Positions 13,468 to 36,034 of a DNA stretch of 64,000 nucleotides are shown here, in pieces. This DNA comes from Ephemerocybe angulata (taxonomy: Eukaryota > Basidiomycota > Agaricomycetes > Agaricales > Psathyrellaceae). Location of the stretch: assembly GCA_013368325.1 (NCBI GenBank), contig JAACJK010000229.1:186001-250000 (forward strand), in the 5' to 3' direction. The translations under genes were made by a program, and so were the position numbers. How positions within the stretch are numbered: position 1 is the stretch's first letter; each line of letters opens with the position of its first letter. Under the pieces are notes generated by a model. It did no database searches and was not told the DNA's origin. It saw only the letters and a program-made list of their open reading frames with translations.

Positions 13468-13480
13468 TACGAGTCTTTAC
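13468..13480 (+). repeat. left terminal inverted repeat, outer Helitron-like element
   Basis: TACGAGTCTTTAC; exact reverse complement of 35874-35886. It shares the TACGAGTC core with the inner element's terminus. Confidence 0.85.
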
Positions 13481-13732: not shown

Positions 13733-16510
13733 GTGCTTTCAGTCCCTTTTCTGCGTCGACATTATCCAACCCAATGGGCGGATGATGAACCATTTATCTT
13801 TCTATGCACTCAGCCTCTTACGGATACCTGGAACTTTTTAGCTAACCAACCTAATCATCTTGCAGTTCAGTTACCTCTCGACGCCTTGATGCCTGTTATG
13901 ACAATTCCTACACTCAAGCTCTTAGCTTGTCAGTATAACCTCAATGTATATAGCAATGAGCGTAAAAAGAAATTAATGGAAGATCAGATTAGAAAGGCTA
14001 TAGCTGAGCGAGGAATTATGATCTGGTCAATATTCCAAAAAACAGCCGTACTTCAGAAGTTACCCCCCGTTCGTCGACGTCGCGTGAATAAGAAATTCAC
14101 TCAAAATGACATGGCTGCAAATGCCTCAGACCAGGCCAGAGCTCTGGATGAAACCCGCAACAAAGGTCCAGTTCCTGGTAGCTTCCCTCCGCCTCCTGCA
14201 TCTGAGGAGTTACAGCGGAGAATAATTCAGAGGTTTTGTAGCGACTTGGACCCAGCAAATTTCGAAGAGGGTGGCTGCGGCGTGTGTGGACAACTTGTTC
14301 CTCTCAAGGACTTACACCTATTCAGTAAGCGCCAACTTGACATAACGTGCCTCTCTGTTCCTGATGTCACCCGCAAGGAGCGCTACAGAATAGACGCACC
14401 GATTGAAAGCATAGAAGGGCCAGCGATTCTACCGCAGTGTCCATATATATGCGTGCCATGTGAACTTGAATTGGGCAAGGGAAAAGTGCCGCAATACTCT
14501 CTAGCTAATGGGCTCTGGCTTGGTGAAGTTCCAAAGGTGCTACAGGAGCTCACATTTGCGGAGAAGATGCTAGTCGCCAGAGTTCGTCATAACAGAACTG
14601 TTGTACGCGTAGCATCTGGTCGTGCCAAAATGATCGCAAATGCAATTATGTTTGCAAATCCCACTGTTAAAGTTTATCAGAGCCTTCCGCCACCGAAAGA
14701 AGAGGTCGAGGAGATGCTAGCCTTCATCTTTATTGGAAGTGTCAAGCCAACGGAGCTGGAGTTCAAGCGAAGCCCGATGCTAGTGAGGCGAAACCATGTT
14801 GCTCGAGCCTTGGAGTGGCTTAAGCTCAACCATGCTGACTACGCGGACTTGGTCATCTCAACAAGGGATCTAGATTCATACCCTTTGAATGGAGTGCCGG
14901 TCGACCCAGAGTTCCATCAAGTGACTCACGATGCAACGGATAAAGATCCCCTTGAGATGAGCAAGCATGAAACAGACATTGAGCAAGGAACGAAAGAAGG
15001 TCCATGTCCCTTCGTTGTTCGAGGATTGACTGGCCCAGAGTATCTCAAACTTTCAATGAAGCAATTAAAGGCACAGGCTATCAAGCATCTCGAAACAGGA
15101 AAAATGCTCGGGGTGGGGCACGAGGCTACACCACAGTCAATGTATCATAATCCTCAAGCATACCCTCAAATGTTCCCATGGTTATTCCCTTATGGCTTAG
15201 GAGGAATCGGGCAAGACAGGCATGCGAAACTCATGTAAGAGAAGGAGCATAAGCGCCGGCTTCTGATGTATCACGATAAACGGTTTCAAACTGATATGTA
15301 CTTTCCAATGATTGCATTCAATCATGAGCAAATGAAGTCTAATGTTACAGGTAGTTTCCTGTTTGCAAAACGCAAGGACTTCGAGGCTATGTCCCAGCGC
15401 ATCGCAACAATGAAACCTGATGTCCTGGCTTCAGTCGCTGAGAGAATGAGTAGAGGAGGTGGATTCAAGCCACAAACTGAGCAAGAGAAGGCCTGTTACA
15501 CCCTCCTTGAGGATATCGACCATGTTGGTGCATTTTCTGATGGATTCCTTACTAGCAAAAAGCGGATGAAGAATGAGATATGGGCGCTAATTGCAGCGAA
15601 GGGGGCGCCTAACTGGTTCATTACGTTTTCTCCAACTGATAGTCGGCACCCTCTCTGCCTATACTTTGCAGATAACGATATCACATTCTCTCCTGAAATC
15701 CGAGGGTCAGAGGAGAGAGATCAGTTAATACTGAAAAATCCGGTTGCGGCAGCGAGGTTTTTCCATGTCCTTGTCCAACTAGTTATAAAACATGTACTTG
15801 GATTTGAATCCGACACTCCTGGCATTTGCGGAGACCACTCCGCACACTATGGAACCGTGGAGCAACAGGGGAGACTTACACTCCATCTACACCTGATGCT
15901 TTGGATAAAGAATTCCCTGTCTCCGCAGGAGATTAGAGACCGCCTCATGAGCGAGGATGGGGAATTTCAGAAGGAGTTGATTGCTTATCTAGAGGCCGCG
16001 CACAAGGGAGAATTCCACACAGGTTCAAAGGACCATGTCAAGGCTGAAGTAAATGCGAAAGTAGCGTCTAACCCTCTGGGCGACCCAAAAGGCTACCAAG
16101 ATCCTACGATGACGCTACCAAGAGCACCTCCTTCTCACACATGTACTCACGCCACAACTAATATTCTTGATCCTGATTGTTCACAGTGCCAGGAAATTAT
16201 TTCCTGGACCAAGGAGTTCCATGAAGAAACTGACGATATTCTTCTACGTTCAAACGTTCATTCATGCAGAGTTCAGCGAAAGTTGGGAGATAGCGACTTT
16301 AAAACGGTAGATAAATCTAAAGAGGCCTCTGATTTGACGATGCAAACGACTGCGAAAGGATGTTTGGACAAAGATGGTGTCTGCGCAGCCAGATTTCCTC
16401 GACCCATTGTTGAAAAGACATCTGTAGACAAGGAAGATGGACACATTACAATGAAGAAGGGAGAAGAGTGGACAAATACATTTACTCCTGTGCTGACCTT
16501 TCTGTTGAGA
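13733..16510 (+). pseudogene. Helitron Rep, N-terminal half, outer element
   Basis: One frame interrupted by a single TAA at 15236-15238 (after GIGQDRHAKLM); reading continues in the same frame as EKEHKRRLLMYHDKRF, matching the intact inner copy. No ATG opens it, so the start is unresolved (first codon of the open stretch is GTG). It contains the N-terminal cysteine region (CGVCGQLVPL, CPYICVPCELELGKG) of the type annotated DUF6570, then the Helitron-like N domain with the HUH motif HLHLMLW (about 15,880-15,900). Similarity to the inner element stops at ...MKKGEEWTNTFTPVLTFLLR, just before the catalytic tyrosines. Rep would nick and rejoin DNA during rolling-circle transposition; this copy cannot. 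Confidence 0.85.
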
Positions 16511-19500
16511 TTCCTTGGCCATTTATGGCAAGGGCACTTTTCCGCGGCGGTTTCGGCGCCAAGCTTTTTTTCAGATTCAGGCATCGTGACCGTGGGAGTG
16601 CCGTCAGCTGATCTCAAACGGTTACAGGGCTACACCGGCAACCGGTACCTCCTCTCTGTCAAGTCTCATACCTCTAGCTATAGTCGTCGCGTTAACCGGT
16701 ATGTACCGCCATACAATGTTATTCCGTACGTACGCCATCCACCACATGCACCGCTTATCTTGCTAATATACTAGACTACATAGATCTGAGCGTCCGCAGG
16801 AGCGCCTATTGACTGCGTACCTAGCCGCCCGTCCATCCTCCACCTCCCAGATTCGTTGTCGCGTCCAACGACGCATGTGTCCTGAAAACCTAAGCCGAGG
16901 TGAGCACGACATCCATATGTCCTAGCCACTGCTCACCACTCAATTCCAGCCCCGACCGACAACCTCTCGTCACCACGCGCATAAGCCCAACGGCTCCAAA
17001 CCACCCTGCACCGACGAGGCATGATGACGAACGCAAGCGACGCCGTCCAGAGCAGCGATAACGGTGTGTGCCCATTGCACTTCGGACCCTATCAACATGC
17101 AGTACACGCCCACGATCGGATCTACACCTCCCATCGTCAATAATGGACGGACGGGGCATGCAGAGAGGTGAGCACCCCATATTGCGCAAGGCTGGTTCTC
17201 CTACTCACCTGCCGCCCTATCCGCCTTCCAGACCTCGCTCCCCACGACGACCCGGCCGATCCTCCGCCATCTTGTCCTAATATGTGCTTACCATCAGCAA
17301 TACAAAGCAGGGAGGGTCGAAATCGAGCAAAATGGCGCGAGGCGGAACTCCAGGAACACGACGGCTCCGTGCAAGCGCCGCCAAAGGTGAGTAGCTGATC
17401 CGCAATGACGGGGAAGCGCACTGACCTCGAGCACCAGCCAATACAAGTATCCGGCACCGACACCAGCCCAGACGAGAGGGATGGAAGTGAGTGGTGGTGT
17501 GGAAGACACGAAACGGCAGGGGGAGATAGGTGGGAGGACACTGGGAAAGTGTCTCGACGCTCGCTGCGACGATTGGTGGGCCAGGATGAGTGGGTGGGTG
17601 AGATGTCCTCGTCCCAACAAGTTTCCTGTATGCGGAGGACGACAATGGGCGGATATGAACGAGCGGTTTGACTTTGGGGGGAGGATCGGGGTCAGAAGCA
17701 AGGTGGAGGCTGTGGGACAGAGGGCGAATCGAGAGGTGAGTCTATTCTCTCAATTCCTTTTCATCTTTTGGGATATTCAATCCTTTCTTTCCTCAGCTCT
17801 CTCGCGCATCCGTTCGGTCATTCATACCGACGCTAACCTCCCACGCCTTGGACACGCACCAACGTCTGGGCCCCTCGACGCGTTCAAACCCACGTCCATG
17901 ACACGGTGACTCACACGACGGAGAACGCCCCCGGGCTCAGCAACGCGATCGAATGCAAGGCGGCACGCGCTGTCTACGCGAAAAGGTGAGCCCTGCACAT
18001 TGTATAAGATCCAGTTGACTCTACCAACCTCCGCGTAGCGCCGACTCAAGCCACAACAACGGCGCAGCACGAGAGTCAAACGAGAGTAAGACGGCACACG
18101 CCCTCTACGCATACGACTTGTTTGACTGTCCTGACCTTGGCTATAGCCGACTGCGCCAAACCGACGACACTAACGATTGCTAGAGGGCCCCCTTCAATGA
18201 ACGTGAGTCCAGAACCTTATCATATCTTCCTCACGCAGCACGCTTACCTCAAACCCAGCTCCCGCGTGCACGACGTCAAGACGGCTGCACAAGACCACCC
18301 ACGAAGAGCCCACGATCAACAGCCTCGCAGAGGACAAGCTGCTCACCGACGCCGAGCATAACCGGGTCGTATCCACCGCCTCCAGTGCAACCGACGAAGC
18401 CCCACCACCTGCGAACGCCGAGAATCGGGCGTCAGACAGGTAGATCTGGTAACAGACGGGGGCCGCCTGTGCCATGACTGGAGAAGAGGAATGAAGGTAA
18501 GCAAGTCGGTTCAAGGCTTTGGATGTGGCAACTCACCGGAATTCAGCAAATCCGCCATACAACTCGCCCCGACATTTGCCACGGTCAAACAACGCCCCCA
18601 CTTTCGAGACACGCCAGACGCACACAGGCGACGACTACGATGGCGCGGTGAGCTTCGTATCATGTTCGGTCAGTTGGATGTACGTACTTTCTTAATAAAT
18701 GAACTGGTTTTCGGTTCAGAAGTCCTGGGTGGATCCTCGGATTTGAATTGACGAGTGAGTCGAGTGAATTTACTGACCAATCGTGTACTGACCTCCGTGG
18801 TGCTGCTGCGACCAAGAACGGTTAGAGAATCTTGGTGAGTCAGTCGACCTGTTTAGAATGGGTTCACAGGCCCGTCGTTCGTACGCGCGCTCGGACTTCG
18901 GCGCTGTGGCGACTATATTTGGTCAATATCCCAAGACTGCGGCGGCGGGTAGACCTTTCATGGTATCAGCAGTCAGTGTCTCGTGGGGTGCGCTAGTCAA
19001 GCTATGAATGTACCTTCTGAACAATAAACCGGTTTTTGCTTCGTGGTGGCTTGAATAGTAAACAAAGCTAACTGACGATGTACTTTCAGGCTAAGTTTTA
19101 ATGAAAGCAGGTGTATTGCTGTAGGCGGGTCAGCGTGTTGTACGTCGTGCTCTGTTCTTAAAACCGACCTTTGTCGTCGTGGTCGGTGATTCCGCCCCCA
19201 ATTCGGCGATGCACTCTGTGAGTCGTTTGGTTTTTTAGCTGTTTCGGCACCTTGCTCGCGTTTCACGCACGATGCACTGGCTCTAGGAAACGGTTTTGGG
19301 GTAGCCGCCGTCAGGTCCAGTTCTATGGTCTCGGGTGGGCGTTCTGCACGACTATGGTACATCTCAATCCACGCTTCATCTCTAGAGACATCTATGCTTG
19401 ATTTCATTTGTATAGGGAACACTCAGTATGAATATTCTCCGCAGTTCTAGCGGTCACCGGGAGAAGCGTACGGTGTGATGCGTCGTGCTCACTCCCTCGG

Positions 19501-19955
19501 CTCTCTGTGCCACACGAAACAATCTATCGGCCTTTGAGAGGACCATCCCAGTAGTATTGGTCTCTATTCTGTAGCTCACACAACTCAATAAACTCCTTAG
19601 TTTTCGGAATCACAATGCAAAATCCGATTGGCAGCACAAGGCGAGGGCTCAAAACTGGGTAAGACTCGATGCGAGGCTCGACGACGACAAGTTTTCGCCA
19701 CCTCCACCGGCGTAGACACACGACCGCGACGACGATGGCACGTGCATCGCCGATGCCCCTGCGCAAACAGGACGTCAGCAACTCCCTCAACTCCTTCACA
19801 GACGCCGGGGCCCGGCAAACGCACCATGAGCTCGCTGGCTCGATCCCACCTGGCGGTCGCTCCTCCCAACAACACCGTCAGCATGTGAATCCGGCACAAT
19901 GAACTCGTGCGCTCACCTCGCGCCCAAGACCGACGATGACTAATGAACATGACTC
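16511..19955. other. 3.4-kb foreign block replacing about 130 codons of Rep
   Basis: The two Rep halves stop and resume at about 16,510 and 19,956; the inner element has about 400 nt of coding sequence at the same place. The block is GC-rich compared with its flanks, has no recognisable long coding region, and is sprinkled with exon-edge-like words (GAGGTGAGC at several places, pyrimidine tracts ending in CAG). Short imperfect repeats occur around 18,670-19,100 (TGTAC..TTCT..AA.AATAAA). No inverted ends or target duplication were found. It may be captured genomic fragments. Confidence 0.5.
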
Positions 19956-22900
19956 TCCAGATGATGAGCCAATGCTACTTACCGTAAAAAATGGCGAACT
20001 TACTGGGAGGTCCTGTGTCGATGACTATACTTTCAGACCAGACATATATAGCGATATATGCCTATACGACTGGATTCAGTATAGCAAGAAAAGGCGGATG
20101 CGGAAAAAACGGAAGGGCGCCTCTAAAGATGCTGAAGATTACAGTGACGAGGATAGTGATCACAGCGACACTCCAGATGAAGTCCAGGTCGAACAATTGA
20201 GCGACGGAGTTTACTCAAATTTTCAACCAGGCCACTCACAGAGTAAAACCCATGATGTGAAGTGCATCCTCGAAGAGGGAGGTGGGTTGATCCCAAATTT
20301 CCTAGGTGGGACACTCCCCCGTCGCTCGGAAGGGGATCATGAGTTCTATTGCATGACTATGCTTACCTTGTTTAAACCATGGAGGTCAGGGAAAGATTTA
20401 AAAGGGATTGATGATAGCTGGAGTGATGCATTTCACTCGCATGAGTTCTCGGCTTTCTTCAAAAAGGTTATGGCAAATATCAACTTGAAGTATGAGTGTC
20501 TTGATGCCCGTGACGACTATCGAGCGCAAATGAACAAGCTACGAACTGAAGGTAAGAAAGGGAAGCATAGTATATTCCTTCCTGGTGAGAACGGTTATGC
20601 TGAGGAATACGAGGAGGATTACATAGAGTCGCTTGGACTGCACGTGGACGATTCTGGCTTGCTGGATGAAGAGTATGACCTTGGACTTAGCAGAATCAAG
20701 AAGTTGACCCAGATGCAGGAGGCTCAAAATATTATCTCTCGCACAGGATGGCTTGATGATGTCCCACTCAATTCTGGACAGCCTGCAGATGAGGTTTCAA
20801 GTGGAAATAAAGAGGAACATCCCAATTCCTGGGTACCCCCGAGCGAGTTTCAAACTTTGTTGCACCTGGTCTGTCAGCAAATCATTGGAAGTCGGTTGTC
20901 AAAGAGCAGAAAGCAGCAGTCCTAATTGACAAAAAGAAAAACTCCCAGGCGGAGCCCATCGATACGCCCACGGAAACAAATAAAGGGAAAAAAAGTAATA
21001 GAACAGGAGTTGTTCGACTCCTTGATGCTGCTTTCCTTCGCCGTGACTTCAAAGCGGAGAAAAAGGAGGCTGATGACATGATTCAGACCATCGTAAATGA
21101 GAAGTCTCTAAACAAGGAACAGGAGAGAGCATTTAGGATAGCAGCTAATCATGCTGTAAGTCCATCACCTGAACAACTGAAGATGTACCTTGGGGGGATG
21201 GGAGGGACAGGGAAGTCCCAGGTTATCAAGTCATTAATTCTCTTGCTTGAGAGGAGAAATGAGAGTCATCGATTTATTGTACTTGCGCCTACAGGAACAG
21301 CAGCAGCACTGCTAAATGGATCGACACACCACTCTATGCTCGGGATAAACATGCGAGGAAAGGATGAAGATAAAGTTCAGAGGCGAAATGAAACAGTATC
21401 TGTGAATGAGGCACGGGAACGGCTGAGGGGAGTTGACTACATATTTATAGATGAGGTTTCGATGGTCGCATGCCATAAACTCTATGGGATAAGTGCTCGA
21501 CTAGCCCAAATTGCATCAGTATACGATCAACCCTTCGGCGGTTTCAACATTATACTTGCAGGTGACTTTGCTCAACTTCCACCAACATCAGGGGCTGCTC
21601 TCTATGGACTTACTGATCAGTACGTTGCAAGTGCCTCAATGAAATTAAGATCCCAAGAGAGTGCTGTCAGTAAGCTTCTGTGGCACCAGATTACTACTGT
21701 GGTAATTCTCAAACAGAACATGAGGCAAAGGGGGAAAGGGACAGAGGACGAATCATTCCGAACAGCACTAGAGAACATGAGGTATGGTGCTTGTACGCAA
21801 GACGATCTCAAGTTTCTCCGAACCCGAGTAGCGAATCACATGTCTCCAACCACGTCTCTTGCTCTTCCACATTTCAAAAATGTGTCTGTAATCACAAGTT
21901 GGAACACATACAAAGATAGGTACAACTCTTTAGGTGCTGTCAAGTTTGCTAAGGAGACGGGGAATGAGCTACATCATTTCTACTCCAAGGATATTCTTGG
22001 GGTTATGGAACCAGCAATGACCAAAGCTGGAGCTAGAGTGATGAGAAGAAAATATGGGCAGACAAAACTATCAAAGAGTGTGCAGTGGCTGCTCTGGAAT
22101 ATGGAGCCACATACAAGTGAGCATATTCCCGGTAAGCTCTCGCTTTGCGAAGGAATGCCTGTCATGCTTAGACATAATGATGCAACAGAGTTATGTATTA
22201 CCAAGGGTCAGGAAGGAATTGTCGTGGGCTGGGAGTCCCACGAAGGAGATTTTCAGACACAAACCCTAGATACTGTCTTTGTCCAGCTGGTCAATCCCCC
22301 AAGGACTGTTCAATTCCCTAACCTACCAGAGAATGTTGTACCGATTACGAAGTCAAAGAATAAAATGAAGTGCTTTCTTCCAGATGATACAGTTTTGAAT
22401 ATAGAGCGAGAACAAGTCAACGTCCTCCTGAACTTTTCTATGACCGATTATGCATCACAGGGAAAAACAAGAGAGTACAACGTTGTCGACCCCAGCTGCT
22501 GCAAGACAAATCAGAATATCTATACTTGCTTATCAAGAAGTTCGGACGCCAAGAAGACTGTTATCCTACAGCACTTTGACACGGAGAAGATAACGAAGGG
22601 AATTTCTGGAAGACTTCGCCAGGAATTCCGGGAACATATGATCCTCGATCTCATTACTACCATGCGCTATGAGGGACTACTTCCGCCAGCTGTGGAAGGT
22701 AGGCTCAGACTACCCATGATACGTGCGTTCAACAAATGGGATGGGGGAATCAAAGCAAAAAGCGAGATGTGGCACTCGTATCTACGGTACAATGACACTG
22801 AAGCAATCATCGAGAGACAGAGTCAGGCATCTGACCCAGTCCTGTGGAAAGAGGACATGGTCATCAGCCACGAACAAAATGGGAAAAAGCCCAAAACTAA

Positions 22901-23474
22901 GGTCGCACCTGCACGTCCGCCAGTGAAAGGGAAGAGAAATGGAGAAAGTGTTCAGGAGCAAGAGCGTAAGAAAGCACGCACTGCACATACAGTGACCGAG
23001 GATCCTGACGATGCTCCAATCAGAGTCCAGTGGGATGGTCTCAACTACAGCTGCCCTTATGACGCAGTCATAGTCATCCTATATGAAATTTGGAAATCGA
23101 ATCCCCTTGTCTGGCAGCCGGTATATCACTCTATGAGCACGTACCTTGCTAAAGCAGGACTCCAATTTCCAACTGTAGCGCGAGGTGATTGTACCCTTGA
23201 TGCGGTACGCGATGATGTTAGGCACCTCCTCCACAGTGACCATCCCACCATCTTCCCTAATGGTCGGGAGTACGCAGCAGTCAATCCCTTGCTGTCGTGT
23301 CTCCTGGGCACAGCTCCTCGCGCATTATCCTGGTTAGAATGTCAAAATCAGTACTGTGACTACTCGGAGCATGAACAGAATTACGACTTAGCAGGATTGA
23401 CACAGGCTGATGATAGACTTTCAGGGATGCGCATTCCATCTGGTACCCCAATCCAACTCTCGACTGTCCTGAAT
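19956..23474 (+). pseudogene. Helitron Rep C-terminal part, PIF1-type helicase and protease N-part, outer element
   Basis: Two frames. 19,956-about 20,870 (frame of 19,936) resumes Rep with LLTVKNGELTGRSCVDDY and contains NINLKYECLDARDDYRAQM. A frameshift near 20,870-20,890 moves reading to the next frame (HWKSVVKEQKAAVLID), which runs to the stop at 23,487-23,489. The helicase has Walker A GGMGGTGKSQ (about 21,196), Walker B FIDEVSM, GDFAQLPP, QNMRQ and a C-terminal SQGKTR motif. After a charged linker comes a protease-like Cys box, NYSCPYDAV (Cys codon 23,052-23,054). The true frame ends at 23,474, where the nested element begins; the last five codons and stop belong to that element's terminus. 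Confidence 0.85.
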
Positions 23475-23488
23475 GTTACGAGTCCGTA
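23475..23488 (+). repeat. left terminal inverted repeat, inner element
   Basis: GTTACGAGTCCGTA; exact reverse complement of 35411-35424. Confidence 0.9.
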
Positions 23489-26400
23489 GTAAAACGAAGG
23501 AATCGTTCTGTTCCTCTCGATTTTTGCGAGACGCGCATCACTGACTTTAGGAAGTGTCACGTGACATGCTGAGTCATCAGCTGAGTCAGCTCTCCCCTGC
23601 CCTTGCGCGAGACGCTCAAAACCGACATTGGGATGTTGGTCACAGCCACTGATCCGCGAGCGATGGCATCAATGATGCCATTACGGGCTAGCAACTTTCG
23701 ACGCTCGTGGATGCTCTCTTGTCCTTACTTACTCCTGTGCTGTACGCTCCTTTCTGATGTCAAGTGTGAAAGGCAATATATTGAAAACGGCTTCTATGTA
23801 TCAAAAATACCCTTCCAGCTTCCATCTACGGGTGCACCTTGTCCTGCAAACATCGGACGGCGTCTTTTGGCGAGGAGAGGGGTGGATGATGACTGCGAAT
23901 CGCGCGAAGCGAAGTCGGTTGAAGAGGGAATCGACATCGTACCGACGCGAAGCTTGTCGTCATCCTTGGCTCGCACTCTTCTGGCAGCTAACACCTTAAC
24001 ACGCACGTAGGCCAATACAACAATCTGGGAGTGGCAAATAACACTGTCAGCACAACATACAGCGAAGACGACGACGACGTACTGGTCCAGGGCACATCTG
24101 ACTTAAGGCGCCGCTCACGATGCACATGTGCATAGGCGAATCCCCTAAGCGACACAGAGGGTGGGTGAGTGTTGGCTAGATGGGAGACACCCGACGACGG
24201 CGACTTACCCTCTCCCACGACGACCACACGCATGCCCACGCCGTCTCACTGTTGCGCGGGACTGCTCCAGCTTCGAGGTCAGTGTGTTGAATGGCGAGCA
24301 CACAATATGACAATGAAAACGGCAGTGACGAGGTGGAGAGAGGGAATCTGGGAATGTCGATGAGCAGTCGCCTCTCACAACATCGGAAGGGACTGACGTC
24401 TCCTGCCCCACCATCATAGCATCGGCCATGGACTTTACTGCCCGAAACTCCTCCAACCGTGGAGCTGCACTTCAATAGCGTTGAGGCGCACTCCCCCTTG
24501 CACCTGGACATCTGCAGCATGAAGGTAAGTACCTCTCGCCTTATGGGCACTGGACTCACTTATGATTCACAGTCTCGACTTGCCGGCCGCATTCTCCACC
24601 GCGCCATCTGCAACGCCGAACTGAGCGACGGCATTATCCATAGACCCCCATGGTGACACCCACAGACTGTTGTTGTCGCCTTTGTTGGTGTGCTTGTGCT
24701 CGGGGTGCCACTGGGGACATGAAGTCGACGATCAACTTGCAGATTTCCGACGTTGGAAATCGGCAATAGATCACATGACTGATCGGAAGCGGATCGGACC
24801 CCTTGTCCTTCCTGCTCCTGCCAGACTTCTGTAAAACCATTTCGAGCCTTGTCAGCGTCCTCACCCCAGGGGCCAGCCACGTTTGTGAACACGGGTCTGT
24901 TCGTCGCCTCACCCGTGTCGCCGTGCCCAAAGCCACCCCGTTCGACGACACAAGGTAAGCCGGACGTGTGTTGACTGTTGTCCCATTCACGCTGACCTTG
25001 GACACCGAGCAGCCTTCACTCGCCCTCGCCGCCCTCGCTCCAGTTCAAGGAAGCGAGGATTCGACCATCGCACTCCAGCACCTTCGCCTCTCGTTTAACG
25101 ACACCGGGAAGCCTCTCCTTGTCCACCCTTGTCTCCAGGTGGGGTCCAACGACGCTGAACTTTCGTATCTTCTGCCTGTTGCCTACAACTCGAGTCTCAC
25201 GACGCCGAGGAGTCTGTGTTCGCCACCGCCACCTCCAACTCGCATACAACGACGTTGAGCCTCTTGTCCTCTCCGTCCAACGGCACCGAGCAGTCCCTAC
25301 CCGCCGCCACCGCCTGAGGACGGGAGCGCATGCAGGATTCGGGGCGCGTCACCAGCAGCAAGTCCACCCAGTCCATCCACGGCACCACAACAACCACCAC
25401 GTCACCACCGGCGCCATCCTCCATACCTTCAGATTCTTGGTTCTTCACCACTGAGTCTCCGCCCACCACCACCATTGCTGTGCACTCGATGACCCAGCCA
25501 AGTCGAACGACATCAACACCACCGCACCACCGCATCCCCTACATCACATCCCCACCTTGCACCATTGAACGCCCTCTGTATCACCACCACTGGATCGCCA
25601 CGTCCGCATCGAACGGCGCCTCCAACGCAGCAACCAAAACCAGAACATCCCTCGCATCGAACTTCGCATGCAATGTGTCGCAGCCAACAGTACATTCCTA
25701 CCTCGAGTCGAATGAAAGTCGTATCCATCCTCGCAGTCATCCCCCACGGCCGCGTCGCAGTGCTGACTCCAGTTTACATCGTACGCAATACAGGTGAGCT
25801 ACTCCCTCTTTGTAGACTGATCGGCTTGTTGACACACTGCAAGATTCTGCGCCATTGGACCCTCATTCACCGGGCGCCATCGCTCCATCGATGCCCCAAG
25901 GCCTGCCGTGTCCAAGAACCGTGCGGTAAAGATCCTTGCAGTAGCCCACCCCTTTCTGCGGTCCAGGCATTCACCTTCCTTCGCTCGACACCACCTCTCG
26001 GTTTGTGATCGACGCGCGCCGAGGGCTCCCTCAAGCATGGCGCCGCCAGCACATCACTATCAGCAGTGGCGGCGCTGCCCTCCTCACCATCTACCACCGC
26101 ATGTCGTTGCGCTGAAAGTGACGTCGGCTTCCAGCCCCACGCTCTCCTCGCCACCACCATCCTCCGCTCGCCTTCGTCCGTCGGTATGCAAGACTTTTCC
26201 GGCCACCCATGGGCCGTCTACAACTACCCTCTCCTTTCTCCTTCAACCGCCGCCCCATCCTCCGTTCGCCGCCGTCGCTTCAAGCGGAACTGCTTGAGCA
26301 GGTCTCCTTCCACTACCGCCCTCCTCCCCTCACAGCGCGCCGGTGCGCTTCTCTCGGTATTGCCGTTTAGCGCACGGTTCCTGGAAGGGACGATGAGGAA

Positions 26401-26913
26401 GGCGCGAGGGGCGATAATGACGCTGGCCCCTGAGGTGACAATATGATGGTGGAGAAAAGTGGCGAGCGAGGGGTTGCAGGAGGAGGGTGGACGGCAAGGG
26501 AAGGACGACGCTAGGACAGCGGAGGGGGAGGTACGATGATGGGCCGCGTCGATGGCAGGAGGGGGAGGAGGGAGAATGGGCGGACGGGAGGAAGAGGGGT
26601 GAGGGTGTGAGGTCAGCGATGAGCGAGCTGCGAGTACAGTGGTAGGACGGACCCACGATACTCAACGGCGGCAGCAAGAGATATTTGCTATCATCTGCCT
26701 CATCCCACTTGTAGTAGTCCTTCCTTGTCTCTTCTTCGCACTACATTGTCAATCGTCTGTGTCACGGAAACATTGTGTCTATTGTATGAACTCTGAATCA
26801 ATTCTAAATTACGAGGGCTCAATCTCAACAACAAGGACAAGGAGGATAAGATTCTGAGGAACCGCGATTGACGGACATCACCCGACACGGCCGGAGTGCC
26901 GACCGGCGCCGGA
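23489..26913. other. 5' region of inner Helitron-like element, no recognised gene
   Basis: GC-rich with marked strand asymmetry: 25,300-26,300 is C-rich with CCACCA runs, and 26,450-26,640 is G-rich. Several open frames exist but encode only low-complexity Thr/Ser/Pro/His-rich or Arg-rich sequence. Splice-like words (GAAGGTAAGT at 24,519; CACAG) occur. It may be captured host fragments or regulatory sequence. Its size and texture resemble the 3.4-kb block in the outer element. Confidence 0.45.
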
Positions 26914-29900
26914 ATGCTTCGTCATCGCCATTTCACGGCTTGCTTCTCCCCACCATCGTCGCAAACCATCGTCTCCGCAACTTGGCCGCCTCTTACAGCA
27001 CGTCCCACAGACATGATCTTTGCTTTATCTCGTTCGCTTTCCGGCCTTTTTCTCCACTCTCATGGCGGAGATCCGTTGGCAATTGGGGCCCCCGCCCACT
27101 GCAGCTTATCCTCCGGCCTCATCAGCAGTCCCCCGTTCTCCTTTTCTTCAAGAGATACTCTACTGCACTCTCCGGTACGACCTCAAATCATATCATCATT
27201 AATGTTAACAACCCCTCACGCAATTACACAGTCTTCTCCTCGCCCGTGTACTTTGGTTCCGTTTTGTTCATCCAAACCAACAGCCCCTGTCGATGCTCAC
27301 CCGTCCACCCTCAAGAAGTTCTCAACGTGCCCCTCCCCTCCCCCTTCGACTCTGGCCCCCAACGTTCGCCCCCTGTGTCTGCTTCACGATTCTTGTCCAC
27401 CAGCTCTGCCCGCTGACACCAGCACTTCAACACCACCCGCATATGCTTGCTCAACGGATCTTCTCTGCAGCGCTCGCTTGCCAGGCTTATCCTCAAGTGC
27501 ACGCTCCTCGTGCTCTGACTCTCGTATTTCGGCCCTACCAACCCCGGATGCTTGCTCGTGCTCTAGTACTCGCTTGTCGGATCTACCATGCTCGTTAACT
27601 TCGTGGTCTGACGCTCGGTCATGCTCTGACTCTCGCTCGGTCTCTCCACTGCTCTCCAATGCTCGCTTACCGGATCTATACTCCAATACTTGCTCACTGG
27701 ACCTGCTCTCCAGTACTTGCGCATCTGATACTCGCTTGGCAGCTCAACTGCTTGCCACAGCTCATTCTCCAGGTGCGCTCTCCAATGTTTGCTCACCAGA
27801 CATACTCTCTAATGTTTTCTCTCACTCATCGGATTTACTCCCCGGCACGTGCTCAACATCTCTGCCATCCTGTCCTTGTTTGCCACACCGAGTGGGATCT
27901 ATCACTGCGCCGCGAGCAGGGTTTGACTCTGTTACCGAGTGTGACGTGCCCCGAGCGGGGTCTGGCTCGATTGCTGAGTGTGACATGCCCCGAGTGGGGT
28001 CTGACTCCGTTGCCGAGTGCAACGAGCCCCGTGTGGGGTCTATCACTGTGCCCCGAGTGGGGTCTGATCCCGTTGCTGAGTGCGACGTGCCCCGAGCGGG
28101 GTCTGGCTCGATTGCTGAGCGTGACATGCCCCAAGCGGGGTCTGGCTCGATTGCTGAGCGTGACGTGCCCCAAGTGGGGTCTGGCTCGATTGCTGAGCAT
28201 GACGTGCCCCAAGTGGGGTCTGGCTCGATTGCTGAGCGCGACGTGCCCCGAGCGGGGTCTAATTCTATCGCCGAGTGTGATTCGCCCCGCGTGGGGTCTA
28301 ATTCTATTGCTGAGTGTGCCGTGCCCCAATTGGGGTCTAATTCTACTGCTGTATGTGAAGTACCCCGAGCAGGGTCTGGCTTAAGTGCTGAGTGTGAAGT
28401 GCCCCAAGCAGGGATTGGCTTGATGTGTGAGTGCCATGTGCCCCGAGTGGGGCCTAAGTCTATCGCTGAGTGTGGTGTGCCCCGAGCGGGGACTAATGCT
28501 ATGGCCAGCAAGACACCCCGTGGTACACTTAGTCCTGTTGGTGGTGCCCTTTCAAAGGCTATACCATTTGCGCCTGGGCTTGATCAATATATTATTACTC
28601 TGCATCGCTCTGCTGATTTTCCTGGGTACTTGTTGAAGTTTGTATCATATGGCCCTGTGGCTGTTAAAAAGACTCACTTTGATAGTGTGCAGAACATCAT
28701 GCATGCAAGGTTACCACTAGGGATACTTGCCCAACTTCTAAGTATTACTACTGCTAGGGATGTTTTGTTACATCATGGTGTAGTACTTCCTGCACGTGCC
28801 AAGAGAGCAGACGTTGATGCTGCTCTTAGCACTCATCAATGTAATATGTGTGTTGATTGCGCAGCAGAGTTAGAAATTGTACAGGGAAAGCAGATGCAGT
28901 CAAATGCGCGTAACAGAAGTCACCGTGCACAAAACAAATTGAAAGCTTTTGAACCTACATCAGAGAAGAAATCGTTAGAATTCTTGCATGAAGATATTGG
29001 AAATACATCCTTCCCCCCGCCACCACTTACACCTGATGTTGAAATGGAAATCATTGCCCGAGCCTGCACTAAATTTGATCCATCCCAGTTTGAAGAAGCA
29101 GGGTGTGCGGTTTGCGGAATGTTGGTTCCGCTGAAGCAACTAAGCAAGCTAAAGGCTATCCAAGGTCATTTGAATGTTTTAATCCGTGATGGCTGTGCTA
29201 AAAGAGAAAGAAAGTCTGAAAAGGATACTGCGAAAGAGTATAACGCTCCTGTGATTGATGATACCTGTGATAAAGTATGTGATGACTGCCGAGCTTCCCT
29301 TCGCAAAGGCGATATTCCAAAGTATGCGTTGGCTAATGGCCTGTGGCTTGGTAATATTCCTAGGGAATTGTCCGAGTTACGATATGTTGAAAGACTCCTA
29401 AGACTCCTTATTGCTAAAGTTCGCCATACAGTTTGCTGGGCAAAAGTATCAACAGGCATGCGAAAAATGAAGGCTAACTTTGTTGCCTTTGAGTCACCTA
29501 TGCCCCAGATATATGAAAGACTTCCACCTCCGAGAGAGGATATTGAGGAAGTTTTGGCAATTCTATTTACAGGGCCAACCAAGCCTGATCATGCGACTTA
29601 TAAGCGAACACCTTTTCTTGTGAGAAGAAACCATGTTGCTCAGGCATTGAAATGGTTGAAGCTCAATCATTCTGATTATGCAAATATTGACATTTCACAG
29701 AAAAATCTTGACTCTTATCCTGAAGATGTGCCTCCTGTAACTGTTGAGTATATTCAGAAAATTGGGAACAAGCTTGCAGAGAGTACAAGTATACATGACA
29801 TGGATGATGAAGATGGTACTGAAGAAGGAGAATGTCCATTTACAGTACATGGCATTACAGCACAGGATATTGAAACTGTCTCTGTTAGAAAGCTGAAAGC

Positions 29901-32900
29901 AAGGGCTGTTCACCATTTGAATAACGAAGGAAGATTTCTCAATGTTGGGCGCCTTGACTTGGTTTCGATCTGGAGTAACCCCCAACTTTATCCCCAAATG
30001 TTTCCCTGGCTATTCCCGTATGGCCTTGGAGGCGTAGGATCTGTTGAAGGGTTGTCAAGTAAAATGCATAAGCGTCGTCTTCTCATGTACCATGACAAAC
30101 GCTTTCAAGTCGATCCCAACTTTCCTTTCATTGCCTTCAGCCATGAACAGATGGGGGCTGTTTCAACATCTGGAAGGATTGCGACCAACCGAGCAAACTT
30201 TGATGAAATAACCAGTCGCTTACTCTCTGTAGATATGACTGTTCTTCAATCCCTGGCAACACGTATGGCTAATGGTGAAATTGTCAAAGCTGAAACCGAT
30301 ATGGAAAAGCAATGCAAGAAGGTCGTTTCCGATCTTGACTGCATAATGTCAAACGTGAAGGGTTCTATAACTACTAAAAAAGGAATGCGCAATGAGGCTT
30401 GGTCTTTAGTGGCTAGTCATGGTAGTCCATCTTGGTATTTTACTATGGCACCTGTTGATACTAAACATCCTTTGTGTATCTATTTTGCCTCTGATAATAT
30501 CAAATTCACTCCAGACATTGGTCCAGAAAAAGAGAGATTGCTAAAAGTCTGCAAAAATCCGGTCGCTGCTGCACGATTCTTTCATTATATGGTTTTGATA
30601 TTTATCCAGGATCTTATGGGGGTCAATATAGATGGCCGAGGCATATTTGGAGACGTTTCTGCATACTACGGCACTGTTGAGCAACAGGGGCGATTGACAT
30701 TGCACTTGCATATGCTTATTTGGCTCAAAGGCAACCTAAGCCCGCAGAAAATGAGAGATAAAATTATGAACGATTTGGCCTGGCAAAAAGCGGTTGTTGA
30801 ATGGCTCGAGTCGACGCACTGTGGAGAGTTTGCAACTGGTTCACAATCTGAGGTTACTGCACGTGCTGATACAGCAGAACAAAGCGCACCATATGATGAA
30901 GTTGAAACCCTTCCAATTGCTCCACCTTCTGGAAAATGTGACAGTACCATGCCTGACCAAGATGATGTATGCGACTGTAAATTCTGTAAATCAAAGCGAG
31001 GATGGTGGTCGTATTTTCTATACAGATTTGATACAGTGTTTCTAAGATCAAATCTGCATTCATGTCAGCGGTACATCAACCTAGATGGAACTACAAGCAA
31101 GAAAATGGTGTATCGAGCCTGTACTGATAACATATTTAAAAGATGTAGAGCGCGCTTTCCTAGACCTCTACATGCAGAGACCAAAGTTGATCCAACAACA
31201 GGAGCACTCATTATGAAGAAAGGTGAAGCCTGGGTCAATTATGTTAATCGAGTAGTCACATTTGTGTTGGGGTGCAATACCGATGTAACTAGCTTAATGT
31301 CTGGTACTGCGGTTAAGGCAGTCATTGTATATGTTACTGATTACATTACCAAGCAAGGATTGAAAACACATGTTCTATACGATGCTATTCAATCAATTAT
31401 ATCCAAAAGCTCAGATATACTAGTTGGTGACATGAAAGCAAAAGAAAAAGCGAGGCGTTTGATGACCAGAATGGTCAATTCAATTTCTGCAAAGATGGAG
31501 CTAGGTGCTCCAATGATATCTCTATATTTGCTGGAGAATCCTGATCATTACACTAGCCACACATTCAAACCCATGTATTGGAAGCAGTATATGTTTGAGG
31601 CTAGAAGGGCTTTTCCGACAGAGGCAGAAGAAGATGAATTTGACAAAATCATGATCATGAAGAAAGATGGAAAATACATTGGCCTCTCATTCGTACATGA
31701 CTACATCTATCGCCCATCTGAAGCAGAGAACTTGTGTGTGTATGAATTCATTCAACGTTGTACTTCAATTGCTATACCAAAAGGTGATGAAGACAAGTTG
31801 ACTAAAAACACATATAGATTTATGAATGAACACCCTCTTTCAGAAACACATGCTCTAAGAATAAATTGCGGATTGGTCAATCACATTGTACCTAACATTT
31901 TGGGGCCACCATTACCAAGATGTGATGTTGGTGATCAAGGTGATTATGCAGTAGCTATGCTGAGCCTTTTTAAGCCCTGGAGAAGTGGTATCGATCTGCG
32001 TGCTGGATATAGTGGATGGCATGAAGCCTTCAGTAACTACAGCTTTTCTGAGCGCTACATTCAGATTATGGCAAATATCAACCTTAAATATGAGTGCTTA
32101 GATGCAAGAGATGATTACAGAGCACAGATGCATCAGTCAAGTGGAATTTACGATGGACATCTATCTGGAATTGACTTTGAGCAATGTGAAGATGGAGTAT
32201 TAGCCTCTGAATGGACAGCTGCACAAGAAGGCCTTGACCTTGATGCTATTGCAAATGGAGCACTTAGCCCTGCTGAACTTGACAGACTGAAGAAGGTACA
32301 AGATATGACTTCTGTGTTACAAGATATTGGGTGGGACCAAGCAGTTGCTAATGATAAGGCACAAATTAGAACAAACCATCCATCTAAGATGCCACCTTCG
32401 CATTGGAAAGCACTTGTACAGAATAAACGAGTAGAAATTATGGATGCTCGAGCTACGCAAATGCCTACAACTTATGAAAGTAAAAAAGACCTTCAGAAAA
32501 GGTGCAAACTAGATGGCAATGTGTTCATTGCAGATAAGTCATACTTACTGAAAAGTTTTTCACTCAATGAAGAAGAGCATCAGACATTTGTCAATGAAAG
32601 TATAAATCAATTTAGTCTCAATTATGAACAAGAGAAAGCTTTCCGCATTGTAGCTAATCATGCAGCTGATCCATATTCTGAGGTGCTACACATGTATATT
32701 GGAGGAATGGGTGGGACTGGCAAATCACAGGTTTTAAAAGCATTATCGTTCTTCTTTAGACTACGCAAAGAGTCCTATAAACTTATAGTTGTTGCACCCA
32801 CTGGGAGTGCTGCAGCTTTACTAGGTGGTATGACCTATCATACAGCATTTGGCATAAATGATAAAACTAGCAAGACCAACTTAGCATCTATCAAAGATCG

Positions 32901-34302
32901 ACTAACTGGTGTTGAGTACATATTTTTTGATGAAGTCTCTATGCTCAGTTGTCGTGATATTTACCGTATTAGTGAACGTTTATGCCACACTCTTAATAAT
33001 CCAGATGAAAGCTTTGGTGGACTTAACATGATTTTAGTTGGTGATTTTGCTCAATTGCCTCCTGTAGTAGGAGGCGAGGCAGCATCTTTGTATGGACGCA
33101 TCGAGTATTCTTCTACTAATCTGAATAAGCAAAAGGAGTTAATTGGCCAATGCATATGGCACGAGTTTACCACTGTAGTTATGCTTACAGAAAACATGCG
33201 GCAGGTAAAGCCAGGTAATGAGGCTTTTCGTACAATGTTAGAGAATATGCGGTATAAAGCATGCACCTGGGATGATATCAAGTTCTTGCGCTCACGTATT
33301 TCATCAATTTTAAGTGGTCGATCTTCAATCTGTAGTCCTGAATTTAGAAATGTCTCAGTTATCACTACTCGTAACCTTCTCAAAGATACAATGAATGATA
33401 TTGGATCAAAACGATTTGCAACTGAATCAAATCAGGAGCTTGTGTACTTCTATTCAGAAGATCATATATCTATAGAGTCTGGTGAATCAACTAGGCGTAG
33501 ACTCAAAGGCAAGAGCACTGCACATATTATCAATGAAGCTATGCAAAGAGACTTATGGTATCAGATTCCCTCTACTACTGACAAACATGTACCTGGAAGA
33601 TTGGGTATATGTATCGGCCTGCCTGTTTTGATACGTAATAATAGTGCAACTGAGCTAGGAATTACAAATGGGCAAGAAGGTTTCATTCATAGCTGGCAGT
33701 CTACAGTAGGCTCTAAAGGTCAACCTGTTCTTGAAACGGTCTTTGTAGAATTGGTCAATCCACCATCAAAAATCAATCTGAGAGGATTACCAGAAAATGT
33801 TGTTCCTATACTACCAACAACTACACACCAACTTATCTGTTCACTGCGGGGTGGCACAAAAGTTTTGATTGACCGTACCCAAGTTGATATGTTACCCAAT
33901 TTTGCAATGACTGACTTTGCTTCTCAAGGAAAGACAAGAGAATTTAATGTAGTTGATCTCCAAGCTTGCAGAACACATCACTCAATGTATACAGCATTAT
34001 CGCGTGGAACATCAGCAGAAGGAACATTATTGCTACGAGATTTTTCACCAAGTATTGTTATGAATGGGATATCAGGCAGGCAGCGCCAAGAGTTCAGAGA
34101 GTTGGCCTTACTTCATGAGATAACTGATATGCGGTATAAGGGTTTACTGCCTGTTGAGATTTTTGGCATCCACAGAAAAGAATTGATTGCATCATTCCGC
34201 AAGTGGAAAGGGGAGTGTTATGTGCCTAAAAGTATCCATAAATCTCTAAGGTGGAATAATGACAAGCCCTGGGCTGTAGATGACAACCCACACTTAGAGT
34301 AG
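26914..34302 (+). CDS. Helitron-like Rep-PIF1 helicase, inner element
   Basis: 2,462 codons from the first in-frame ATG; the real start may lie downstream, since conserved sequence begins near 28,555 (FAPGLDQYIITLH). Order: low-complexity Ser/Cys-rich N-terminus (to about 27,885), 13-residue tandem repeats (27,890-28,500), cysteine region like DUF6570 (CAVCGMLVPL, CDKVCDDCRASL), Helitron-like N domain with HUH motif HLHMLIW (about 30,700), Rep tyrosines in YVTDYITK (Tyr codons 31,330 and 31,342), NINLKYECLDARDDYRAQM, and the PIF1-family helicase with Walker A GGMGGTGKSQ (about 32,700), FFDEVSM, GDFAQLPP, ENMRQ and SQGKTR. All catalytic motifs I can check are present. It would nick, unwind and mobilise the element. 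It ends in TAG, with the same frame continuing open into a protease-like domain. The coding part is markedly more AT-rich than flanking host genes. Confidence 0.9.
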   Translation: MLRHRHFTACFSPPSSQTIVSATWPPLTARPTDMIFALSRSLSGLFLHSHGGDPLAIGAPAHCSLSSGLISSPPFSFSSRDTLLHSPVRPQIISSLMLTTPHAITQSSPRPCTLVPFCSSKPTAPVDAHPSTLKKFSTCPSPPPSTLAPNVRPLCLLHDSCPPALPADTSTSTPPAYACSTDLLCSARLPGLSSSARSSCSDSRISALPTPDACSCSSTRLSDLPCSLTSWSDARSCSDSRSVSPLLSNARLPDLYSNTCSLDLLSSTCASDTRLAAQLLATAHSPGALSNVCSPDILSNVFSHSSDLLPGTCSTSLPSCPCLPHRVGSITAPRAGFDSVTECDVPRAGSGSIAECDMPRVGSDSVAECNEPRVGSITVPRVGSDPVAECDVPRAGSGSIAERDMPQAGSGSIAERDVPQVGSGSIAEHDVPQVGSGSIAERDVPRAGSNSIAECDSPRVGSNSIAECAVPQLGSNSTAVCEVPRAGSGLSAECEVPQAGIGLMCECHVPRVGPKSIAECGVPRAGTNAMASKTPRGTLSPVGGALSKAIPFAPGLDQYIITLHRSADFPGYLLKFVSYGPVAVKKTHFDSVQNIMHARLPLGILAQLLSITTARDVLLHHGVVLPARAKRADVDAALSTHQCNMCVDCAAELEIVQGKQMQSNARNRSHRAQNKLKAFEPTSEKKSLEFLHEDIGNTSFPPPPLTPDVEMEIIARACTKFDPSQFEEAGCAVCGMLVPLKQLSKLKAIQGHLNVLIRDGCAKRERKSEKDTAKEYNAPVIDDTCDKVCDDCRASLRKGDIPKYALANGLWLGNIPRELSELRYVERLLRLLIAKVRHTVCWAKVSTGMRKMKANFVAFESPMPQIYERLPPPREDIEEVLAILFTGPTKPDHATYKRTPFLVRRNHVAQALKWLKLNHSDYANIDISQKNLDSYPEDVPPVTVEYIQKIGNKLAESTSIHDMDDEDGTEEGECPFTVHGITAQDIETVSVRKLKARAVHHLNNEGRFLNVGRLDLVSIWSNPQLYPQMFPWLFPYGLGGVGSVEGLSSKMHKRRLLMYHDKRFQVDPNFPFIAFSHEQMGAVSTSGRIATNRANFDEITSRLLSVDMTVLQSLATRMANGEIVKAETDMEKQCKKVVSDLDCIMSNVKGSITTKKGMRNEAWSLVASHGSPSWYFTMAPVDTKHPLCIYFASDNIKFTPDIGPEKERLLKVCKNPVAAARFFHYMVLIFIQDLMGVNIDGRGIFGDVSAYYGTVEQQGRLTLHLHMLIWLKGNLSPQKMRDKIMNDLAWQKAVVEWLESTHCGEFATGSQSEVTARADTAEQSAPYDEVETLPIAPPSGKCDSTMPDQDDVCDCKFCKSKRGWWSYFLYRFDTVFLRSNLHSCQRYINLDGTTSKKMVYRACTDNIFKRCRARFPRPLHAETKVDPTTGALIMKKGEAWVNYVNRVVTFVLGCNTDVTSLMSGTAVKAVIVYVTDYITKQGLKTHVLYDAIQSIISKSSDILVGDMKAKEKARRLMTRMVNSISAKMELGAPMISLYLLENPDHYTSHTFKPMYWKQYMFEARRAFPTEAEEDEFDKIMIMKKDGKYIGLSFVHDYIYRPSEAENLCVYEFIQRCTSIAIPKGDEDKLTKNTYRFMNEHPLSETHALRINCGLVNHIVPNILGPPLPRCDVGDQGDYAVAMLSLFKPWRSGIDLRAGYSGWHEAFSNYSFSERYIQIMANINLKYECLDARDDYRAQMHQSSGIYDGHLSGIDFEQCEDGVLASEWTAAQEGLDLDAIANGALSPAELDRLKKVQDMTSVLQDIGWDQAVANDKAQIRTNHPSKMPPSHWKALVQNKRVEIMDARATQMPTTYESKKDLQKRCKLDGNVFIADKSYLLKSFSLNEEEHQTFVNESINQFSLNYEQEKAFRIVANHAADPYSEVLHMYIGGMGGTGKSQVLKALSFFFRLRKESYKLIVVAPTGSAAALLGGMTYHTAFGINDKTSKTNLASIKDRLTGVEYIFFDEVSMLSCRDIYRISERLCHTLNNPDESFGGLNMILVGDFAQLPPVVGGEAASLYGRIEYSSTNLNKQKELIGQCIWHEFTTVVMLTENMRQVKPGNEAFRTMLENMRYKACTWDDIKFLRSRISSILSGRSSICSPEFRNVSVITTRNLLKDTMNDIGSKRFATESNQELVYFYSEDHISIESGESTRRRLKGKSTAHIINEAMQRDLWYQIPSTTDKHVPGRLGICIGLPVLIRNNSATELGITNGQEGFIHSWQSTVGSKGQPVLETVFVELVNPPSKINLRGLPENVVPILPTTTHQLICSLRGGTKVLIDRTQVDMLPNFAMTDFASQGKTREFNVVDLQACRTHHSMYTALSRGTSAEGTLLLRDFSPSIVMNGISGRQRQEFRELALLHEITDMRYKGLLPVEIFGIHRKELIASFRKWKGECYVPKSIHKSLRWNNDKPWAVDDNPHLE
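27890..28500 (+). repeat. coding minisatellite, 39-bp unit, about 15 copies
   Basis: The unit encodes 13 residues, consensus VPRAGSGSIAERD, with variants such as PQVGSGSIAEHD and PRVGSNSIAECD. Each unit contains a near-palindrome CCCCGAGCGGGG that can fold in DNA or RNA. All forward frames and a 229-codon reverse frame are kept open by the repeat. Unit length is occasionally altered, as where PRVGSIT adjoins PRVGSDP. Confidence 0.9.
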
Positions 34303-34416
34303 CAAATTGTAAAAGAAGATCAAAAACACACGAAAAAGGTAGCTAGCTCCAAAAATTTGGATCCTTTTAAGGCATTTGTACCTGCAGTAGGCTCAAATAG
34401 TCTTAAGCGTAAGTCT

Positions 34417-35355
34417 ATGCCCAATGATATTAGTGATGAAGATAGATTCAAAAAGCTAAAACTTGACGATACAGGTAGAGATTCTGTAAATGATGTTGAT
34501 ATGATAGACATGCAGACTCAGCCTATCACTATTCAAGATATCTCTCTTCCTGGATCACAGTGGCAAAATAATAGTTGTGCTTATGACTCAATGCTTTGCA
34601 TTTTGTATGCTATATGGATCACTAATCCTCAGCAATGGTCTGCTTATTTTGCATCGGTACAGATTCCAGAGACTACTGAGGCATTAGCAATAGGATTTGA
34701 GGAATATCGCACCAAAAGAGGTACACTTGAAGCAGCACGTGAGAATTGGAGACAGAGTATGGCGCACTTATCTCCAGATTTGTTTCATCTAGGAAACTAT
34801 ACTAGTGTTATCAATCTAATCGACTCTATGTTTGTATTTGAAAACCCAGTATACAAGATACCCCAAGTTTGTGATCATTGTGATGAACCTGATAGAAGAC
34901 GGGGTTATATGCATACAGCAAACCTTCAACTTAATGCAGATGATGAAGGTTCATCTATCCAGACATGGCTAACTCCAGATTTGTTTGCTAATGTTCAAGA
35001 AGACTTGCAGTGCCAAATTTGCAATAGACAGCTTGCATCTAGAATCAGGCTATTAAGCAATGCAAGTCACATAGTATGGGTAGCGTTTGATAGACATGAG
35101 CACATGCAAATATCAACTTTGCTCAAGATACTAACTGAAGGTGGAGAGGTACAAGAGTATATATTGGCAGGTATTATATACTATGGAGGATCACATTTTA
35201 CTTCTCGGATAATCAAAGGAGACCAAGTCTGGTACCATGATGGCATGATCAATAGTGGGCAAGCAGAGTATGAAGGTATAATATATGCACTAGGTGACCT
35301 TAAGCATAAAGGGAACAAGAATGTGCAATCAGCTATCTATATTCCTAAGCTATGA
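34417..35355 (+). CDS. cysteine-protease-like domain ORF, inner element
   Basis: In the same frame as the Rep-helicase and open from 34,303, directly after its TAG; the first ATG is at 34,417 (312 codons). It has a Cys box NNSCAYDSML (Cys codon 34,576-34,578), a zinc-binding-like pair of CxxC groups (CDHC ... CQIC), and a His box GGSHFTSR (His codon 35,194-35,196) followed by WYHDG with a candidate Asp, the layout of papain-like ubiquitin-specific or related peptidases. In the outer element the equivalent domain is fused to the helicase without a stop. So this is either a separate protein, a readthrough extension, or a product of a recent nonsense mutation. Activity and substrate are inferred only. 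Confidence 0.7.
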   Translation: MPNDISDEDRFKKLKLDDTGRDSVNDVDMIDMQTQPITIQDISLPGSQWQNNSCAYDSMLCILYAIWITNPQQWSAYFASVQIPETTEALAIGFEEYRTKRGTLEAARENWRQSMAHLSPDLFHLGNYTSVINLIDSMFVFENPVYKIPQVCDHCDEPDRRRGYMHTANLQLNADDEGSSIQTWLTPDLFANVQEDLQCQICNRQLASRIRLLSNASHIVWVAFDRHEHMQISTLLKILTEGGEVQEYILAGIIYYGGSHFTSRIIKGDQVWYHDGMINSGQAEYEGIIYALGDLKHKGNKNVQSAIYIPKL

Positions 35356-35410
35356 AATGCTTTCTACCAAAAATGAGTTAGATTGTTGTCGATTAGAGTC
35401 AAAACCTGAA

Positions 35411-35424
35411 TACGGACTCGTAAC
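35411..35424 (-). repeat. right terminal inverted repeat, inner element
   Basis: TACGGACTCGTAAC; exact reverse complement of 23475-23488. Confidence 0.9.
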
Positions 35425-35835
35425 AAGCCGCGCATTGCGACGGCCACTGCGCAAGTCGACTCCAAGCCTGCTCATATACCATGCCCTTGGTGCCATGATG
35501 GGAACTCCCTTCGCAGAAAGGCACTTGTCGATGACGGTGCTCATGTGATGGCTTTTGAAGCCACCTCTCCTGATATCCAACCTGACTTCAATATTTTCTT
35601 TCCATCTCAAGCTGGTCGGGTCATGTACCGGCTGGCTGGGATTGTCTACTTTGGGAGCAGTCACTTTACTGCTCGCATTGTGGACCGAGCGGGGCAGGTC
35701 TGGTTCCACGATGGTATCTCGACGGGGTCCCAGACCATTTACGAGAACCAAATCAACGGGCGCGCCAGCGGAGAGTGGCTCATGAGTGCGTATGGGAAGA
35801 AGAAGTCTTACCTTATATATGTCAAAGTAGTTTGA
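35425..35835 (+). pseudogene. C-terminal part of outer element's protease-like domain
   Basis: Reads KPRIATATAQVDSKPAHI then CPWCHDGNS and the His box GSSHFTAR (His codon 35,662-35,664) with VWFHDG, ending KSYLIYVKVV and a stop. It is homologous to the C-terminal part of the inner element's protease ORF but clearly diverged. It continues in phase from codon 23,472-23,474 once the inner element is removed. Confidence 0.85.
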
Positions 35836-35873
35836 GATTGACTTAATCGACATTATTAAAGAAAAAAAAAAGA

Positions 35874-35886
35874 GTAAAGACTCGTA
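35874..35886 (-). repeat. right terminal inverted repeat, outer element
   Basis: GTAAAGACTCGTA, preceded by an A-rich run. Exact reverse complement of 13468-13480. Confidence 0.85.
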
Positions 35887-36034
35887 CCGCCGTGCTCCGC
35901 AACGGCCCTCAGCACCAAGTTTCTTTGGATTTTCTTCAAGTTCGATAGCCCGGATTTGGCCCGGACCGGCAATCTATTACAGCGGTGGAGGCGGTGATCA
36001 AACCTGTCGGCATCTAGAATCATTGCTAAATGAG

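Follow-up and report, generated by a model that had tools for sequence, protein, structure and literature searches.

A Rep/helicase transposon inserted in another such element raises a direct question: where, to the base, does the inner one begin and end, and what kind of transposon is it? In the 64,000-bp stretch of the Ephemerocybe angulata genome analysed here (the window), a sequence-only reading had recognised the nesting, and we confirm that one Rep/helicase element lies inside another and splits the protease-like region of the outer one. The same reading had described the ends as defined to the base, at 23475 and 35424. Sister copies and empty sites show that this was off by 32 bp at the right end and by one or two bases at the left. 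We conclude, with a probability of about 0.94, that the inner element, 11,980 bp long and occupying 23477-35456, is a rolling-circle transposon whose ends are of the Helitron2 type, and that it was inserted 3' of a T in another Helitron2-type element (Table 1).

Table 1. Features of the nested elements, in coordinates of the window.
Feature	Position	Strand	Remarks
Outer Helitron2-type element	13468..35920	+	10,473 bp without the inner element, which interrupts it
Outer 5' repeat TACGAGTCTTTAC	13468..13480	+	
Outer DUF6570 and Helitron_like_N frames	13733..16774	+	
Outer PIF1 helicase and N-terminal (Cys box) part of protease-like domain	21078..23476	+	
Target T	23476	+	kept once; the host's T is this one or T35456, which cannot be told apart
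Inner Helitron2-type element	23477..35456	+	11,980 bp; ends TACGAGTC...GCGCAAGT; common to 10 RepHel-bearing copies
5' asymmetric terminal inverted repeat, inner	23477..23488	+	hairpin TACG-AGTC-CGTA
5' non-coding leader, inner	23477..26100	+	divergent between copies about 98% identical in their 3' parts
Inner RepHel frame	26896..34302	+	2468 aa; DUF6570, Helitron_like_N, PIF1 helicase
Putative USP-like (C98/C19-like) cysteine protease domain, inner	34357..35355	+	in-frame stop divides it from RepHel
3' inverted-repeat arm, subterminal, inner	35411..35423	+	ends 33 nt before the 3' terminus
3' hairpin GCCG-CGC-ATT-GCG-A-CGGC, inner	35427..35444	+	7 bp, one bulged base
3' tail CACTGCGCAAGT, inner	35445..35456	+	12 nt; follows the hairpin and forms the element's true 3' end
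Outer C-terminal (His box) part of protease-like domain	35457..35835	+	continues the phase of 23476 at the corrected junction
Outer 3' repeat arm GTAAAGACTCGTA	35874..35886	+	34 nt before the outer 3' end; exact complement of TACGAGTCTTTAC
Outer 3' hairpin GCCG-TGC-TCC-GCA-A-CGGC	35889..35906	+	

The perfect 14-bp inverted repeat on which the original ends were based is present, its arms being GTTACGAGTCCGTA (23475-23488) and the reverse complement of that sequence (35411-35424), and the span from repeat to repeat is 11,950 bp as reported. The perfect pairing in fact covers 15 bp, since T23474 pairs with A35425. When the window was simulated ten times with an order-1 Markov model, each simulation contained 0-9 inverted 14-mer pairs at spacings of 2-20 kb; the real window holds 94, most of which come from one long repeat elsewhere. 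A 14-bp inverted repeat alone is therefore not beyond chance, and this one gains its significance from recurring across the genome. Against 10 matches for the reversed pattern, the 12-mer TACGAGTCCGTA has 24 exact ones in the genome, of which eight pairs face each other 10-20 kb apart. Nineteen of the 24 belong to 11 copies of the element. Two others (C147 and C149) are element-like 5' ends for which a partner was searched and none found, and the remaining three (C67, C105 and C143) are followed by no element sequence. Outside the inner element, the window also contains a 77-bp perfect inverted repeat (42583-42659 with 49689-49765), its arms lying about 7 kb apart.

Ten of these copies bear RepHel and have both ends (on C47, C117, C139, C150, which is the window, C190, C207 twice, C218 twice, and C220); the eleventh is a 2.4-kb relative on C38 with no Rep match. 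Copies elsewhere had been expected to end at the repeat, and instead they run past the right one. The common sequence extends 32-34 bases beyond it in all ten RepHel-bearing copies and 31 bases in the C38 relative, ending CAAGT in each. The order past the right repeat is the same in 11 of 11 copies: the hairpin, a tail ending CAAGT, then divergent flanks. On the left, flanks diverge before T-TACGAG. A T precedes TACGAG in every copy, and the base before that T, at the position of 23475, is A in five copies, G in five and T in one. Because this base varies between copies, G23475 belongs to the host, and the shared right extension together with the variable left base gives the inner element as 23477-35456. 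The base 3' of the target T can be any of A, C, G and T among the 11 copies. A 3' signature, GACTCGTA-N(14,22)-CGGCC-N(4,12)-AAGT, matches 18 places in the genome, and its reversed control matches none.

To look for empty sites, we fused the 120 flanking bases on either side, retaining a single T, for the ten copies other than the one in the window, and searched the genome with the result. Four of the ten matched uninterrupted sites, six in all (C218a at C98 and C47; C190 at C38 and C190; C207a and C207b at C117). At all six the junction is exact, with one T and no base gained or lost, at 82-98% identity; the site on C190 has a 4-bp gap 11 bases left of the junction. The roughly 32 extra bases expected at empty sites if the element ended at the right repeat are absent from all six, so the junction seen at these other copies' sites differs from the one that had been predicted. 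For the other six copies (C38, C47, C117, C139, C218b and C220) the search gave no uninterrupted site, only self matches and short partial matches for C38 and C220, and genome searches for the empty sites of the window's inner element and of the outer element gave self matches only. The claim that insertion neither duplicated nor removed target sequence thus holds at six empty sites of four other copies, given one ambiguous T, and by extension probably in the window. Two copies at C207:209685 and 210767 lie head to head, 1.08 kb apart, and a matching segment on C117 (2462-2463 kb) is without both.

The reading frame of the outer element had been offered as proof of the original ends. Excising 23475-35424 does keep that frame open, although the test is blind to the position of the ends, because the two junctions differ by ten codons (11,950 and 11,980 are both 1 modulo 3). 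Both junctions were scored against 99 homologous proteins that cover the interrupted region; the corrected one scores higher in 79 and not higher in 20. The differences run only from -2 to +5 bits in the 12 proteins shown of the 99, which makes this scoring weak support. With the insert removed, the window junction is predicted to read AATG-T-CGAC.

The outer element has the same layout as the inner one, and its right end, at 35879-35920, is one of the 18 genome matches to the 3' signature. The inner and outer repeats differ in sequence, and each arm matches its own partner. The 5' hairpin of the inner repeat has a z of -1.8, and 15 of 200 shuffles fold as well; at the outer 5' end, where a repeat of the Helitron2 kind is likewise present, the best fold is not the simple hairpin that this repeat would predict but a different one. 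The 3' tail hairpin forms in the same place in all seven variants folded, with energies no better than those of shuffles (z from -1.4 to +0.5 across the seven). We aligned 12 variants of the 3' hairpin, comprising 10 distinct forms among the 18 signature matches and one each on C16 and C22. In this alignment 95.1% of 81 cells pair, compared to 12.7-52.1% when slid, and one of seven pairs covaries. Shuffles reached the covarying-pair count in 380 of 500 cases, the number of pair types in all 500, and the covariation score and percentage paired in 15.

The Pfam domains of the inner RepHel frame include Helitron_like_N (E 1.1e-33) and PIF1 (E 2.4e-24). By eye, its translation contains what we take to be the HLH and YVTDY motifs. 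Each of the 10 large copies has a Helitron_like_N match, and in six of them an open frame of 2712-2819 aa could accommodate RepHel together with the putative USP-like domain. The three best-scoring RepHel homologues, among 120 listed of 605, are Coprinellus and Ephemerocybe proteins. Across the genome there are 106 Helitron_like_N matches; eight are far stronger (184-216 bits) and may be another Helitron clade.

Helitron2 elements were described by Bao and Jurka (2013). According to the excerpts of that paper (PMC3627910), these elements have a 5' T and asymmetric inverted repeats of 8-15 bp, of which the 5' repeat lies 0-2 bp from the end and forms a hairpin, while the 3' repeat lies about 20-30 bp inside, upstream of a 3' hairpin. 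The inner element likewise carries RepHel, with its Rep and PIF1 domains, a 5' T with a terminal repeat that can form a hairpin, and a subterminal 3' repeat before a hairpin. Its 3' repeat lies 33 nt inside, farther than the 20-30 bp of PMC3627910 and within the range of PMC5148889. Judged by end structure and RepHel domains, the element appears to fit the published Helitron2 definition closely. The end structure had been called unusual for a Rep/HUH-helicase transposon; it matches published Helitron2 elements, as far as the excerpts of PMC3627910 and PMC5148889 describe them.

A further comparison is with the FoHeli Helitrons of the ascomycete Fusarium oxysporum, whose 3' arm lies about 20-40 bp inside according to a figure legend and 38-51 according to the text (PMC5148889, excerpts). 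They share with the present elements asymmetric repeats, an inner 3' arm, hairpins, termini confirmed by pre-insertion sites and an ambiguity over the terminal T. They differ in their terminal sequences, in a TNAT/A target in two subgroups and in a size of about 5-11 kb. For one Fusarium subgroup, circular forms in which the two ends are joined have been reported. Canonical Helitron1 was rejected as an assignment. As had been noted from the start, TC...CTRR termini are lacking: the ends are TACGAG...CAAGT rather than 5'-TC and CTRR-3', and insertion is 3' of a T with any base next, rather than between A and T. HELPO1 and HELPO2 of Pleurotus ostreatus, which are of that canonical type, resemble the inner element in RepHel, a subterminal 3' hairpin and the lack of target duplication, and they differ in T[C/G]...CTRR ends (CTTG in HELPO2), an AT target and no terminal inverted repeats, as given in the excerpts of PMC4289320. 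A Helitron2 from Agaricus bisporus is described in PMC12730594 (excerpts), so the group was already known in mushrooms.

Three other readings have to be weighed against these data. If the element were exactly 23475-35424, with 14-bp terminal inverted repeats on both sides, the perfect repeat and the open outer frame on its removal would be accounted for, and an extra piece starting AAGCCGCG would be left at the window's empty site. We consider this very improbable in view of the 31-34 bases that 11 of 11 copies share past the right repeat, the six empty sites of other copies that are without those bases, and the variable base at 23475. Inverted repeats near the ends would also suit a DDE transposon with terminal inverted repeats. 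However, the repeats are asymmetric, the six empty sites have no target-site duplication beyond one ambiguous T, and Pfam scans of the larger frames show Rep and PIF1 domains and no transposase, so that a DDE element is hardly to be expected here.

A Helentron, that is, a Helitron2 relative with an AP endonuclease and a TT target, comes nearer in structure, having subterminal inverted repeats and a 3' hairpin (stem-loop) in common with the inner element according to the excerpts of PMC4067079 on Helentrons and DINE-1. The AP endonuclease, TT target and terminal T runs of that group are absent here. No Pfam match to an AP endonuclease was found in the frames scanned, nor does one appear among the domains given for the homologues listed (120 of 605); the C-terminus appears USP-like instead, and in the 11 copies the target T is followed by any of the four bases rather than by T. 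We therefore give the Helentron reading very little credence and retain the Helitron2-type assignment.

The C-terminal domain merits separate attention. The inner protease frame itself matches no Pfam family. The homologue P0045 matches Peptidase_C98 with E 1.5e-5 and 25.3 bits, just below the 27-bit cut-off, and a structural model matched 11 solved structures at E 0.001 or better, all of them USP enzymes; the model is of low confidence (mean pLDDT 51.7; TM-scores 0.21-0.53 for the 11 best). This homologue match and these fold matches suggest that the C-terminal domain of RepHel in both the inner and the outer element is USP-like. The domain matches 104 of the 120 RepHel homologues listed of 605, at most 55 residues from their ends. 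It goes unmentioned in the excerpts of PMC3627910, and the animal Helentrons of PMC9741609 (excerpts) carry deubiquitinase classes other than USP.

We also compared the 10 RepHel-bearing copies over their first 1,350 (5') and last 1,342 (3') bases. In the 3' comparison the window and the copies C139, C207a, C218b and C220 are 97.9-98.7% identical, and there C139 departs from the window at 4 of 332 third codon positions. Over 26.1/26.7-29.0 kb, at the start of RepHel, the same four copies are only 84-92% identical to the window, so the bodies as a whole are not nearly identical. In the leader, the first 157-461 bp of these copies align with the window at 81-87%, followed by patches. Identity between the window and C139 leaders is 58-82% over 23777-25276; C139 has nothing corresponding to 25277-25876. 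Leaders so unlike, joined to 3' parts about 98% identical, indicate that leader and 3' part differ in history. In the relatives on C104, C11 and C133, no exact TACGAGTC 5' end was present in the 6-7-kb stretches searched. Two 3' ends of this general type were observed at C11:666705-666750 and C133:314127-314172; their nearby flanks are identical, so they are perhaps one duplicated locus. Rep genes lie about 10 kb away and are encoded by the other strand, so that RepHel looks inverted with respect to the ends, an arrangement reported for some Helitron2 elements in the excerpts of PMC3627910.

By analogy with the family, the Rep (HUH) domain would nick at the 5' T, and a single strand would be peeled off as the helicase unwinds the element. 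The end of replication may be marked by the 3' hairpin together with base pairing between the repeat arms, and the strand would be joined into a target that contains a T. That both arms have changed together between the inner and outer families fits the proposal that Helitron2 arms are used together.

For annotation, the correction of the ends matters because the original call would put the right border of every copy about 32 bp out of place. With ten copies that bear RepHel and with six empty sites, both borders and the single-T target are now fixed for a family in a mushroom genome. It is possible, though on balance doubtful, that a RepHel-fused USP/C98-like deubiquitinase is what defines these mushroom elements as a Helitron2 lineage, with 5' leaders turning over by exchange. 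The stepwise fall in identity from the 3' end to the 5' leader would then be a sign of template switching late in rolling-circle copying. The fused USP-like domain deserves study of its own: if this proposal is true, it would add a third deubiquitinase class to those in rolling-circle transposons, the other two being the OTU and herpes-tegument-like domains found in animal Helentrons.
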